Of a stretch of DNA of 64,000 bases, positions 52,602-60,067 are shown piece after piece. The stretch lies in contig CABVSR010000011.1 of the NCBI GenBank assembly GCA_902500995.1, forward strand, positions 1-64,000, given 5' to 3'. The DNA is from an uncultured Nitrospira sp. (lineage in GTDB: Bacteria; Nitrospirota; Nitrospiria; Nitrospirales; Nitrospiraceae). A program made the position numbers and the translations under genes. Positions within the stretch are counted from its first letter, which is position 1. The number at the start of each line of letters is the position of its first letter. Below the pieces are notes generated by a model. It ran no database searches. It was not told the origin of the DNA and saw nothing but the letters and a program-made list of their open reading frames with translations.

Positions 52602-55166
52602 CTACCGGCCAGGCCCGGAGTAGGCCGGCTCATCTTCGATCCACTCCCTGCCCAGGACGCCCTCGTCTTCGAGTTTATCCGGGGGACGGAAGTCCGTAAC
52701 CAACTCCCGCAAACGCTCAATCGCTTTTTCTGAATTGTTGAGGTACGCAGCCGCTTCCATCGCCATCATCATCCCCGAGACTTTGCCGGCAGCAGTGACC
52801 CCCACGCGCCGAATGCGCAAAATCTTGCTCAGCGCCGAGCATTCGGCGGTCTCATCCGTACCGACCAGTTCCTCGTACAATTTTTCGCCCGGACGCAGAC
52901 CGACAAAACGGATGGGAATTTCACGGCCCGGGACGAATCCCGAGAGGCGAATCAAATTCCTGGCCAGATCCAAGACCTTGATCTGCTCCCCCATGTCCAG
53001 CACGTAGGTGGCTCCCTGTTCGCCCAATGTGGCCGCCTGCAGCACGAGATGGACGGCTTCGGGTATCAACATGAAGTATCGCCGAATGTCCGGATGTGTC
53101 ACCGTCACCGGACCGCCGGCTTGAATCTGCTCCTGAAACCGGAGCAGCACGCTCCCGTTACTGCCCAACACGTTGCCGAACCGCACGGTCAAAAAGCGCG
53201 TGGCGCTTCGCTCCGCCATGTCCTGCACAATCAACTCGGCGGCGCGTTTCGTGGCTCCCATCACACTCGACGGATTCACCGCCTTATCGGTGGAAATCAG
53301 AACAAAACGCTCGACTCCGCAACGAGCCGCCGTTTCCGCGGTGATACGGGTGCCGATGCAATTATTCTTCAGCGCCTCGGCAGGATTGAGTTCAACCAGC
53401 GGCACGTGTTTATGGGCGGCCGCGTGAAAGACGATGGCGGGCCGATAGCGTGTCATGGTCTCCGTCAGCCGGCGGCGATCCGTCACATCACCCAGCACGG
53501 GATGCACGATGGCGGACAGCCCCCGGTCCTCCAACTCCTTGGCGATGGTATACAGGCTGTTCTCATGCCGCTCGAACAGCACCACGGACTCCGGCCCCAT
53601 GGAGGCGAGCTGGCGTGATAATTCCGACCCGATCGAGCCACCGGCGCCGGTAATCAGTACCCGGCGGCCGGCCACCATTTCCACCATGGCATCCGTCTTC
53701 AGATGCACCGGTGCCCGCGCCAAGAGATCTTCAACCGCCACATTTCTGATCTGGCTGACGGCGCTCCGGTCTCCGAGCAAGTCCTGCATGCTGGGCAACA
53801 TTTTGACCGAGACTCGAAAGGGACCGAGGTCGGCCATGATCTGGCGCAAGACATCGGGAGTGACCTGGGGGAGCGCCAGGATCACCTCGTCGGGGCGTTC
53901 CGTGGAAAGGACGTACGCGAGATCTTCCCGGGCCCCAAGGACTTTCACTCCGTGGATGCGCTTGAAACGGAGCGCCGCGTGATCGTCTATAAACCCGATC
54001 GGCTGATACCGGGAGTTCGGATTGAGTTTCATTTCCCGGACGACCCGTTCGCCCCTGTCTCCCGCACCGATGATCAGCACCGTTTTTTTCGGGCGATAAA
54101 TCACGGCCTCCCTCAGCAGCCGCCGCGGGAGCCGAACGCCGGCAGAAAAGCCGATCAAGAGAATGGCATCGATGATGAAGATCGATCGCGGGTATTCCCG
54201 GATACCCATTCCCCACCGTGTCCATGCATACAGCACGAGCGTACTGCTGACCACACCGACCACGATGTTTCGCAAATCCCACAGACTCGTGTATCTCCAC
54301 AGCCCTTCATTCAAGCGAAACACGATGAAGGCGATGGTCCGGACCGCCAACACCCAGGGCAACACCAGGAGGAACGTGCCCCATTCCGCCTCTGGTATCC
54401 GGCCATCGAATCGCAGCCAGAAGGCCAGGTAATTGGCCAGGCCCATCAAACCCATATCGAGACACACAATCAGCGGGCGTCGCCATTTGACAATCAAGGC
54501 CAGGCACCGCGGCCCGAAGTCGGTCGCCTGTGTCGGCCTGGCCACCTGGAGATCGGGCAATTCGCAGACCACCAGCGGAATCTTCAGCACACACAGCAGG
54601 GTCTGAATGACGATCGCCACATCCAGAATCGTCGAGGCGTGCCGGACATAAAACTTGGCCAGCCTGATTTTTTCCGGCAGGACGACGGTGACATATTCCT
54701 CCTCCGGACTGGCGGCCGCGGCCAGGAGAGCCGCTTCATCGATATATTTCAGCGAGGCCAGGTCGGTCAGGCCTGGGCGAGCCGTCAAAATATCCGCGTA
54801 GGCTTCCGGAAACATGTTCACATACCGCGGAACTTCCGGTCTTGGACCGACCAGGCTCATATCGCCCTTCAGGATATTCCACAGCTGGGGCAATTCATCG
54901 AGCTTGTATTTTCGCAAGACGGCCCCGACCCTGGTTACGCGGGCATCCTGCCCGATCGTCAGCTGCCCGCCCTTGGAAGGGGCATCGGCCGACATGGTGC
55001 GGAACTTGTAAATTAAGAACGGCCGGCGATCACGCCCCATGCGAGTTTGCGTAAACCACACCGGCCCCGGAGAATCGAGCCTGATGGCCACGGCAGCCAC
55101 GACCCAGATGGGCCAGGTCAGTAAGAGACCGATCAGCGCTCCGATGACATCCACAGCGCGCTTCAT
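52602..55166 (-). CDS. Phosphoglycosyltransferase fused to nucleotide-sugar 4,6-dehydratase
   Basis: An 854-residue membrane protein joining two enzymes. Residues 1-205 are a bacterial sugar transferase of the monotopic PglC/WcaJ type: [66 protein letters not shown]. The rest is a CapD/PglF/WbpM-type dehydratase: four membrane helices (about 228-345), a first Rossmann domain ([18 protein letters not shown]) and the SDR core with [52 protein letters not shown]. It would make a 4-keto-6-deoxy sugar and, with the adjacent aminotransferase, an amino sugar that its own N-terminal half loads onto undecaprenyl phosphate. The fusion is unusual. It overlaps the aminotransferase gene by four bases. Confidence 0.92.
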
Positions 55167-56320
55167 TGCCTGGCCTCCAGCACGATCTCGCGGACAGCCT
55201 CAATCGTCCGCTGGATGTCCGTATCCGACATTCTTGAATACAGCGGCAGCGACACCATTCGGTGAAAGGCCCGGCTGGCGACGGGAAACTCTTCGGCGCG
55301 ATATCCCCAGGTGTCGCGGTAAAACGGATGCAGATGAAGCGGGATGAAGTGGACGCTGCACCCGATCTGTCGCTGCTGCAACCGCTCGATAAAGGCCTCG
55401 CGCGTGAGGGCCAGCCGGTCGAGATCCAGCTGAATCACATACAGGTGCCAGGCATGCTGCACGTCAGCGTGGATACCCAATGGCTCGATCTCGGGCACAT
55501 CCCGAAACCCCTCCGCATACAAGGCCGCATAGCGCTCTCGGGCTTTCCAGAATCGGTCCGCCTTCTGCAACTGCGAGAGTCCCAACGCCGCCGCCATGTC
55601 GGTCAGGTTGTATTTGAATCCAGGCGCGACAATCTCGTAATACCAGGAACCTTGATTCGTATAGCGCTTCCAGGCATCACGGCTCAGCCCGTGCAGGCTC
55701 ATCCGCCGGATGCGATCCGCCCAGTCAGGATCGTCCGTTGTGATCATGCCGCCTTCGCCCGTCGTAATATTCTTGGTGGCATAAAATGAGAAACAGGTGC
55801 TGTCTCCAATGCTGCCGATCATCTTGCCCTGGTATGAAGCCGGAAACGCGTGGGCTGCATCTTCAATGACTCTCAGATTGTGGCGATGCGCGATCTCAAG
55901 GATCCGGCCCATGTTGCAGGGCTGACCGGCAAAATGGACCGGGATCACGGCCTTGGTCCGTGGCGTAATGGCCCGTTCAAGGCGATCAGGATTCATGTTC
56001 AAGGTGGCCGGCAGGCAATCGATGAGCACAGGCTTGGCCTTGAAGTACGTGACGACTTCGGCCGTGGCCGCAAAGGTCATCGTCGGAACGAGCACTTCGT
56101 CCCCTTCGCCGAGGCCGATCGCCTCCAGCGCCAGATGCAGAGCGGCCGTGCAAGAGTTCAACGCCACCGCGTATCGCGCGCCGACCTTGGCGGCAAACTC
56201 CTGTTCGAATTGCCTGGCCTTGTTGCCGGTCGTGAGCCACCCCGATCGCAATACGCTCACGACCGCGTCGATGTCCTCGTCGTCAATCTCCGGCACATGA
56301 AACGGGAGATAGGCTGGCAT
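55163..56320 (-). CDS. DegT/DnrJ/EryC1/StrS aminotransferase (PglE-like)
   Basis: PLP-dependent sugar aminotransferase, 385 residues. It starts MPAYLPFHVPEIDDEDIDAV, then ALNSCTAALHLALEAIGLGEGDEV, VIPVHFAGQPCNM, VIEDAAHAFPASY and the PLP lysine in FSFYATKNITTGEGGMI. It converts a 4-keto nucleotide sugar to the 4-amino form. The four-base overlap with the dehydratase fusion gene indicates that they act in sequence. The ATG at 56320 has AGAGGA; the open frame upstream adds a non-family leader. Confidence 0.92.
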   Translation of the reverse strand: MPAYLPFHVPEIDDEDIDAVVSVLRSGWLTTGNKARQFEQEFAAKVGARYAVALNSCTAALHLALEAIGLGEGDEVLVPTMTFAATAEVVTYFKAKPVLIDCLPATLNMNPDRLERAITPRTKAVIPVHFAGQPCNMGRILEIAHRHNLRVIEDAAHAFPASYQGKMIGSIGDSTCFSFYATKNITTGEGGMITTDDPDWADRIRRMSLHGLSRDAWKRYTNQGSWYYEIVAPGFKYNLTDMAAALGLSQLQKADRFWKARERYAALYAEGFRDVPEIEPLGIHADVQHAWHLYVIQLDLDRLALTREAFIERLQQRQIGCSVHFIPLHLHPFYRDTWGYRAEEFPVASRAFHRMVSLPLYSRMSDTDIQRTIEAVREIVLEARQ

Positions 56321-56443
56321 GGTTGGTTTCCTCTCCGACAAGGTGAAAAAAACAGAGTGGTTGCGGGATCGAGACAGGTGTGCACAGTCCAAGCAAATCG
56401 CTCGACCAGGCAGCAGAGATCAACACTGCGATGAGGCGATGAG

Positions 56444-57710: not shown

Positions 57711-57875
57711 CTACTCTTCGACTCGCTTTGCGCGCCAAACCACAAAAGCCGCGAAGCCGATGGCAAATGCCAGCAAGGTCTCCGGACCTGGAACGGAGCC
57801 GCCGTTTCCGGGATTACCGCCGCCAATAATGCCAATGATCCAGTTATACCAGTTGCCCATGTGTAACGTCATCAT
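57711..57875 (-). CDS. 54-residue PEP-CTERM microprotein
   Basis: A tiny gene found by translating the minus strand. The protein begins MMTLHMGNWYNWIIGIIGG, has a Gly/Asn/Pro stretch (GNPGNGGS), and ends with a complete PEP-CTERM sorting signal: VPGPE at 28-32, a hydrophobic helix TLLAFAIGFAAFVVW at 33-47, and the basic cluster RAKR at 48-51 before VEE. There is almost no mature domain and no normal signal peptide. The strong SD AAAGGGGG lies about five bases before the first ATG (an ATG at 57872 is the second choice). The exosortase gene is 280 bases downstream on the same strand. It could be a minimal substrate, a decoy or a regulator. Confidence 0.82.
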   Translation of the reverse strand: MMTLHMGNWYNWIIGIIGGGNPGNGGSVPGPETLLAFAIGFAAFVVWRAKRVEE

Positions 57876-58010
57876 CGAACCCCCTTTCGTGAAAAGTGAC
57901 TACTGCTGTTATGGAAGACCGGCCGCCCAACCTGCTCCGCTGTTGCCATGATGTTCACGCCCGTCACATGCGGCCGTCGCGGACTTTCTACACGATCATT
58001 CATGCGGCGC

Positions 58011-58039
58011 ATTGTGTCGTGTTGAGTCACGTTCGTCAA
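58011..58039 (-). promoter_or_regulatory. Sigma70-like promoter upstream of the PEP-CTERM gene
   Basis: Minus strand TTGACG, 17 bases, CACAAT, about 135 bases before the PEP-CTERM ATG and just after the HTH gene stop. It implies a leader of about 130 bases. Confidence 0.45.
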
Positions 58040-58120
58040 GCAAAATTATAGTGCAACTACTTAGTTAATGATCTCCGGACAGTCGGCCGAGAGAGGCCGC
58101 TTCCAGGCCGGCACCGAGAC

Positions 58121-58618
58121 TCACCCGGATGACAATCGAATCGACTGGGCCACATCCTGCAACCGCTCAACGGCATGATCGGACGGCCGGGAAGAACAGT
58201 CGACGGACGGCATCGTGGAACCGTTGTGTGGAATACGGATTTTGACCCACTGAACCCGCGCCTGCCGGGTCGATAATCCTTCTCGCTGCCAGACGTACCG
58301 GACCATCGCCGGCGTGACGGAAAGGCCGTCCAATTGGAGCTGCCCGGCCAGCCGGATATAACTGACAGTCGGATTATCTCGTGTTTTCGACAAGATACGC
58401 CCTTCCAGCAAAGCCGGAGTGCGATTGGGCATCTGAGGTTTGCGCCGGACCCGCGGCGCGAGCCCTTCCGTGCCATGCGTCTCATAGGCCTTTTTCATGG
58501 CGTAAAACTGGGAGCGGCTGATCCCTGCCATCCGGCAAGCCTGCACGACATTCTTCAATTCAGCCGCCATCGTAAGAATGGCGCGCCTGGCCTTGATGAG
58601 TTGGGTACGATTTGTCAT
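58121..58618 (-). CDS. Transposase-derived HTH protein (IS481-like N-terminus, no DDE core)
   Basis: A 165-residue protein. Residues 5-115 match the double helix-turn-helix N-terminus of IS481-type transposases: ARRAILTMAAELKNVVQACRMAGISRSQFYAMKKAYETHGTEGLAPRVRR (shown in part: VVQACRMAGISRSQFYAMKK), ILSKTRDNPTVSYIRLAGQL and VSVTPAMVRYVWQREGLSTR-like segment. The DDE catalytic core that should follow is absent; a 45-residue unrelated tail ends the protein with a clean stop. No terminal inverted repeats were found. It lies inside the exopolysaccharide locus, just before the PEP-CTERM gene, so it may be a domesticated regulator or an IS remnant. AAGGTGA precedes the ATG. Confidence 0.7.
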   Translation of the reverse strand: MTNRTQLIKARRAILTMAAELKNVVQACRMAGISRSQFYAMKKAYETHGTEGLAPRVRRKPQMPNRTPALLEGRILSKTRDNPTVSYIRLAGQLQLDGLSVTPAMVRYVWQREGLSTRQARVQWVKIRIPHNGSTMPSVDCSSRPSDHAVERLQDVAQSIRLSSG

Positions 58619-58999
58619 CCGGTCACCTTCGAGAGATGGGCCACACACCCTGTCCTGGTTTTACCCGATCGGGTTGGCTGTAGCCGAAAATGAATCCCGA
58701 CGGAAAATTGTCCAAGGATCTTCCACCATGAAAAACGCGTTCACGCCATCCAACAGCGCTGGCCGATCGATCACGTGACGGTTGCTGCCGAAAACGCCGG
58801 TACACATACACGTGCGTCATGCGACCAGAAGGATCTGCGACGGCGCGGCTGGCGAAAGCGCCATGCACGTTCTAATACGTAGTTTCAGCAGGCCGTCGAA
58901 ATACGAGGCTCGGCGGGTCGATTCACACACAGGTCTTCTGCCTCGCGAGTGCGCCTTGAAGAGCACGGCGCGTTCGTGCCGCCGGGCAGGCCGTGGAGA
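58619..58999. other. Gene-free spacer upstream of the HTH gene
   Basis: About 380 bases. I see no gene with an SD. The only feature is a small perfect hairpin, TGGCG-AAAG-CGCCA, at 58850-58863. The space could hold the promoter and operator of the HTH gene or be the remains of an insertion sequence. Confidence 0.45.
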
Positions 59000-60067
59000 T
59001 CACGCATTTCCATGGAGCGAGGGAACGAAGTGTTGGAGGCGGCCCATGACCAGCTGGCGCAGTCTATAGGCGCGCTGCGCGAACGTTCTCGCCGGCTCGA
59101 TCCAGCCGTATTTGGACTTCCTGACCCATGGAATCCGAATCTCTCGCCCGCCGTACTGCCGTTTATACTCGCCTCCCCCTCCCATATCATACGTATTAAT
59201 ACCTTGTGCCTTGGCATATCGCATGGCGAACCAGTGCAAGGCCTGATTGGGACGCATGGGGTGAAATTGTCGGTGGCTCGCGCCTCCCCAAAAATACATG
59301 GTGCCGTTGAGGAACGGGAAAATGCCGGTGGCGATGCTGCGACCGACTCGATCGCGCGCGCGCAGCAGGATGATCTGCCCGATGGGATGCAGATGGCTGA
59401 TCAACTGTTTCACCCGATCCAAGTCATAGGTGGGAACGAGCCCTTGACGCCCAAAGGTATCCGTCAACTGTTCAAAGTAGTCTTCGGCAAACCCGGCCGC
59501 CTCCGCGACTTCAACGACGACCCCCTCCTTGTCGGCCTTCCGGATGCATCGGCGGCAGGCACTGGTGAGATTCGCGAAAAGCGCCGCCTCACTCTGATTG
59601 AGATCGACGGCGAAACCCTGATACCAACGATACGGCGCGCCACTGTCGATCAGATCTTCCTGGGTAAGATGCCGATCCATCACTTCCACATGCGCGCAAC
59701 CCAACTGTCCGAACGCAAAGCGGAACAGCCCCTGCAAGGCCGACTTTCGACTGGCGCCCGGTTCCAGCACAAAGCCCATGTAGTCCGTGCTCCATCCCGG
59801 GCAGGGACTGCCGAGAATTCGCAATCCGAATTTCTTCACGATCAACCCGGCAAAATACCCGACGGTGCGCTCCCCATCCTTCAGCGCCGCAAGGACGGGT
59901 GTGCCGCGTTGCGCGCTCGCCACAAAGGCGATCCAGGCAGGGGTTTGGAAGACGGTGTGGTCGCGGTACGAACGTGTCTCGTTCCACCAGCGCTCCGCCC
60001 CTGCGTCCACCTGCTCATAGCGATACATGGCGGGGAAGCTCTGAACCTGTACCGGTGAGGCTGTCAT
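59000..60067 (-). CDS. FemAB/GNAT-like protein of the exosortase/EPS type
   Basis: A 355-residue protein of the FemAB family (double GNAT fold). Seen: VFQTPAWIAFVASAQRG, VGYFAGLIVKKFGLRILGSPCPGWSTDYMGF, YRWYQGFAVDLNQSEAALFANLTSACRRCIRKADKEGV (the FemAB signature around W-Q-x-x-V-D-L and R-x-x-I-R-K-A), FGRQGLVPTYDL and the C-terminal INTYDMGGGGEYKRQYGG. Relatives occur beside PEP-CTERM/exosortase systems and are thought to add amino acids or acyl groups to cell-surface polymers. The substrate is unknown. It is followed, after the spacer, by the HTH gene. Confidence 0.8.
   Translation of the reverse strand: MTASPVQVQSFPAMYRYEQVDAGAERWWNETRSYRDHTVFQTPAWIAFVASAQRGTPVLAALKDGERTVGYFAGLIVKKFGLRILGSPCPGWSTDYMGFVLEPGASRKSALQGLFRFAFGQLGCAHVEVMDRHLTQEDLIDSGAPYRWYQGFAVDLNQSEAALFANLTSACRRCIRKADKEGVVVEVAEAAGFAEDYFEQLTDTFGRQGLVPTYDLDRVKQLISHLHPIGQIILLRARDRVGRSIATGIFPFLNGTMYFWGGASHRQFHPMRPNQALHWFAMRYAKAQGINTYDMGGGGEYKRQYGGREIRIPWVRKSKYGWIEPARTFAQRAYRLRQLVMGRLQHFVPSLHGNA

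Follow-up and report, generated by a model that had tools for sequence, protein, structure and literature searches.

How bacterial exosortases act on their substrates is still mostly inferred. The closest described relative of the locus presented here is the PEP-CTERM/exosortase A (EpsH) system (PMC1569441; TIGR03109, PF07589, TIGR02595), for which there is a topology model of EpsH and in which, by re-analysis, 97% of the PEP-CTERM proteins carry a signal peptide (Haft et al. 2006, PMC1569441). Re-anchoring of exosortase and archaeosortase substrates after cleavage is thought likely (PMC11980579). PEP-CTERM proteins act in flocs (PMC9850573), and the flocculation-associated PepA (PMC9850573, NF033554) is one that is tied to EPS and aggregation. 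Insertases of the Oxa1/YidC family offer a further comparison; they translocate tails of up to about 50 residues (PMC7616256), and the Pf3 coat protein is a model substrate of YidC (PMC8920935).

The window, by which we mean the whole 64,000-nucleotide stretch of uncultured Nitrospira DNA that was analysed, contains a small gene whose product resembles the EpsH substrates in its proline-rich motif, hydrophobic helix and basic tail (Table 1). As in the EpsH system, the gene appears as a single-gene unit with a long leader, and XrtA, FemAB-like, chain-length and tyrosine-kinase genes lie nearby in an EPS locus. Unlike the EpsH substrates, the Nitrospira-type protein has no signal peptide and just some 30 residues ahead of the motif, and its promoter is sigma-70-like, whereas a sigma-54 type promoter has been described for proteobacterial PEP-CTERM genes. 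PepA differs in being about 260 aa long with a demonstrated signal peptide, and the similarity that it shares is confined to the tail and far under the family cut-off. Overall, the signal-less small gene and its XrtA are a variant of the known PEP-CTERM system and not a new kind. A literature search, the coverage of which did not extend to the 2012 exosortase/archaeosortase paper, did not turn up any account of a PEP-CTERM protein lacking the signal peptide.

Table 1. Positions in the window of the small PEP-CTERM gene, the parts of its product, its flanking signals and its neighbours
Feature	Position	Strand	Remarks
DegT-type aminotransferase	55163..56329	-	EPS locus, downstream of xrtA
Short exosortase XrtA, 329 aa	56444..57433	-	TIGR03109 233.4 bits (cut-off 208)
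Hairpin 3' of stop codon	57646..57679	-	8/8 loci, no T-run
Signal-less PEP-CTERM gene	57711..57875	-	ATG to TAG; product MMTLHMGNWYNWIIGIIGGGNPGNGGSVPGPETLLAFAIGFAAFVVWRAKRVEE, 54 aa
Basic tail RAKRVEE, residues 48-54	57714..57734	-	Presumably cytoplasmic
Hydrophobic helix, residues 33-47	57735..57779	-	Helix predicted over residues 31-52, pLDDT about 87-94
VPGPE motif, residues 28-32	57780..57794	-	Presumed XrtA recognition or cleavage site
N-tail, residues 1-27	57795..57875	-	No K/R/D/E; predicted outside
Shine-Dalgarno AAAGGGGG	57880..57887	-	Conserved as GAAAGGGGG or GAAGGGAGG
Sigma-70-type promoter TTGACG-17-CACAAT	58011..58039	-	Conserved at 8/8 signal-less loci and in G045
Palindrome AACTAAGTAGTT	58055..58066	-	About 21 nt upstream of -35 box; possible operator
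Transposase-derived HTH protein	58121..58648	-	Likely ATG start 58618; single copy; adjoins small gene
FemAB-like protein, XrtA locus	59000..60067	-	TIGR03019 match, below curated cut-off

The original prediction had described a 54-residue frame with VPGPE, a hydrophobic helix, a Shine-Dalgarno sequence and a stop codon, giving no strand; all of these were located on the minus strand, the plus-strand reading of 57711-57875 being interrupted by a stop. RAKR, which had been placed at the C-terminus, is near the end but is followed by VEE. Little precedes the motif, as the supposed lack of a mature domain implied, but an N-tail does exist, spanning 25-32 residues across the orthologues with 0-1 K/R and 0-1 D/E. 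The Shine-Dalgarno sequence stands 4 nt ahead of the first ATG and 7 nt ahead of the second, so that translation may begin at the next codon and yield 53 aa. In total the open frame spans only 62 codons and closes within 8 codons upstream of the start, leaving no in-frame room for a hidden signal peptide. The product has neither an n-region nor an h-region, bearing out the claim that it lacks the ordinary signal peptide, a feature that is usual, though not absolute, for PEP-CTERM substrates. An upstream start or a frameshifted signal peptide was ruled out by this closure and by the unconserved leader between promoter and Shine-Dalgarno sequence, and a hydrophobic stretch found in genome G028 was rejected as a hidden signal peptide, the other loci having no such stretch. 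A search of the gene's own genome revealed no second copy, only weak tail-like matches.

Directly downstream lies an exosortase gene, as predicted, whose product exceeds the TIGR03109 cut-off and retains the catalytic residues C196, R241 and H259 intact. The genes are arranged in the order FemAB or aminotransferase, HTH, small gene, xrtA, DegT aminotransferase; beyond these, 52602-55166 on the minus strand encodes an 854-aa protein in which a sugar-phosphate transferase is fused to a nucleotide-sugar 4,6-dehydratase-like domain. The HTH protein resembles the DNA-binding N-terminal part of an IS481-like transposase, the catalytic domain being absent. Strong relatives were identified at 10 loci, each of them beside a short XrtA, with a pN/pS of 0.24. 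The protein looks domesticated, and it may regulate the palindrome and promoter next to it. Elsewhere in the same genome, contig C7 (L096) encodes a second, long XrtA-like exosortase of about 530 aa, near which are two PEP-CTERM proteins of the classic kind (about 816 and 286 aa); the small protein could be processed by that enzyme too.

Orthologues of 53-60 aa were identified at eight loci in seven Nitrospira-type genomes. Among 29 genomes of the genus, clear examples occur in G008, G018, G025, G026 and G028. A search of named records, in which the nearest relatives are mostly Nitrospira MAGs, yielded ACE_NIT7 with two loci, a pair recovered by the family search as G088. In ACE_NIT7 the small gene and xrtA are present in two near-identical copies on different contigs (L024, L025), reflecting either a duplication or mixed strains. 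The signal-less family was not found outside its clade in a search of the phylum. At all eight loci, the gene is immediately upstream of a short XrtA with intact Cys, Arg and His. The frame, its place beside the exosortase gene and the order of VPxPE, helix and basic residues are kept throughout, with the motif deviating to SVSAPE in one orthologue and to VPVPG in another; the original prediction would have fallen had these not been conserved. Summed over orthologue pairs, pN/pS is 0.36 for the whole gene, 0.50 for the head and 0.17 for the tail, with synonymous sites near saturation, and thus the proposed codon-level check indicates strong purifying selection on the tail. For the head, the value is below 1 in nearly all pairs, reaching 0.08 (G000-G026) and 0.22 (G000-G028) against the two nearest relatives and approaching 1 for G025, the most diverged member. 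We conclude from codon-level conservation, which is decisive here, that 57711-57875 is a real coding gene.

Matches to PF07589 were obtained for all eight orthologues (best E 8e-7). The window copy reaches 18.3 bits (E 0.0024) where the cut-off is 20.7, which is weak taken alone; orthologues from four genomes exceed this cut-off, and that from G026 also passes the TIGR02595 cut-off, just below which the window copy lies. The PEP-CTERM profiles therefore recognise the family, with the window copy just under both cut-offs.

Upstream of the small gene is one conserved block, AACTAAGTAGTTG...TTGACG-N17-GACAAT, found at all eight loci. Within the genus, it is restricted to genomes that carry both the small gene and the HTH gene: it occurs once per genome in exactly six of the 29 genomes, the carriers of the small gene, and a gapped pattern search found none in the remaining genus genomes or in controls. 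The gap is needed because the spacing varies, a fixed-spacing pattern having given no match. In G025, the interval from the -10 box to the Shine-Dalgarno sequence is a mere 33 nt or so, too short to encode a signal peptide. A sigma-54 promoter of the proteobacterial PEP-CTERM type was ruled out, since matches fell inside the coding region only and none upstream. The hairpin that follows the stop codon is strong at every locus, with compensatory changes at four pairs; it was rejected as an intrinsic terminator, for it has no T-run and was not called by a terminator scan. From the conserved promoter block and this hairpin we infer that the small gene is most likely its own transcription unit.

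Of 175 genomes of the family, 14 carry a short XrtA, at 15 loci in all; a fifteenth genome, G121, has a distant long-frame match only and is outside this count. Upstream DNA is readable at 14 of these loci (G017 stops at a contig end), and at all 14 a small PEP-CTERM gene lies between FemAB/HTH and xrtA. In the deeper branches (G010 with two genes, G012, G019, G034, G045 and G165), the products are of 76-136 aa and bear signal peptides, called by inspection from a positive start, a long hydrophobic stretch and small residues at the likely cleavage site. With such relatives at the same locus, small size is not the oddity for which it had been taken; what stands out is the absence of a signal peptide. 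The gene in G012 has its own start, though the ORF finder merges its frame with FemAB, and G034 has an extra PEP-CTERM gene and more DNA ahead of xrtA. G010 carries two tandem signal-bearing genes before xrtA (L090 3061-4117), one with a mature part, NYGNFWNFWNNGNFGNWGSYGNG, that is rich in aromatics, Asn and Gly. Across the mature parts of the small proteins, Trp accounts for 30 of 427 residues (7.0% versus 1.7% in window genes; P about 1e-10, the sequences not being independent), which hints at contact with sugar or membrane.

In a tree of XrtA, the eight signal-less loci form one clade (100/99) nested among signal-bearing loci; the deeper forks are modestly supported and the root is weak. 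Moreover, G045 has the same palindrome and TTGACG...GACAAT block ahead of a signal-bearing gene, making it very likely that the two forms are orthologous. Clear homology between the N-tails and the signal-bearing mature regions was not upheld, the similarity being weak and suggestive only (shuffle P 0.01 for G034, others not significant). The single clade and the shared block make one loss the simplest reading, and the signal peptide was probably lost once in the ancestry of the signal-less clade.

We therefore favour, at a probability of about 0.62 that takes in the steps of the mechanism, a reading in which the small gene encodes a locus-specific substrate of the short XrtA, derived through one loss from a signal-bearing PEP-CTERM ancestor. 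The short and nearly uncharged N-tail would cross the membrane by way of YidC or Sec with no signal peptide to guide it, and the RAKR tail would keep the C-terminus inside, so that VPGPE would lie on the periplasmic side, just as the motif does in ordinary PEP-CTERM proteins. XrtA would cut near VPGPE, releasing or re-anchoring a peptide of about 30 residues whose place of action may be the surface or the matrix of exopolysaccharide. The attributes of a YidC-type N-out single-span protein, a short N-tail with few charges and a positive C-tail, are present, with RAKR following the helix. Pf3 coat and other YidC substrates with short N-tails (PMC8920935, PMC7616256) are similarly tiny, with a single helix, a positive C-tail and no signal peptide; this likeness is one of topology only, insertion here being predicted, and homology is not claimed. 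A role of the peptide in the matrix is our default guess, based on the EPS locus and the part played by PEP-CTERM proteins in flocs.

Three readings had been put forward, a minimal surface peptide, a processed signal and a mimic controlling exosortase, and the first is the best supported because signal-bearing relatives occupy the same place and the loci without a signal peptide make up a derived clade; a processed signal is no more than possible. The third, extended to a pseudo-substrate or subunit that sits uncut at the active site of XrtA, controlling or stabilising the enzyme, is unlikely. It would account for the constant adjacency of xrtA, for the greater conservation of motif, helix and basic tail than of the head, and for the near absence of a mature domain to deliver. 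Like substrates, however, the same-place relatives have a signal peptide and a longer mature part, and most orthologues retain the usual substrate form of the motif. The small gene also has a promoter of its own, and a hairpin stands between it and xrtA, giving no sign of a fixed stoichiometry with the enzyme.

It is very improbable that the hydrophobic N-terminal stretch, roughly residues 9-18, serves as an atypical signal peptide or as an anchor that directs the protein to Sec. AlphaFold does place a low-confidence helix at residues 2-18, and several orthologues have a hydrophobic N-tail (19-residue mean up to 1.25), but the first eight residues contain no K/R in any signal-less orthologue, as against one or two in all seven signal-bearing relatives, an h-region of normal length is absent, and in G028 the stretch is interrupted by an inserted WHQWYH; that genome has no other PEP-CTERM profile match at E 0.5. 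A decaying remnant of a signal-bearing gene, which the missing signal peptide and the faster-evolving head might suggest, is scarcely credible and as an account of the whole clade already contradicted, given eight loci under purifying selection with intact frames, Shine-Dalgarno sequence, promoter and hairpin at near-saturated synonymous sites.

Beyond the favoured reading of a locus-specific substrate, it is conceivable, if rather doubtful, that XrtA and the small gene form a dedicated pair, in which XrtA would excise from the membrane a ribosomally made peptide of about 30 residues, untouched by signal peptidase, as a free or lipid-linked extracellular product, under a regulator domesticated from a transposase. 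Were this so, the extracellular peptide would be a matrix glue or a signal.

A natural 54-residue substrate, free of a signal peptide and paired with one XrtA, would be near the smallest possible test molecule, and co-expression with XrtA followed by intact weighing could reveal the cut site and any attached group. Small signal-less PEP-CTERM proteins would be overlooked by gene finders and signal-peptide filters. The clade described here would also illustrate a route by which an exported protein may shed its signal peptide once the exported part fits direct insertion.
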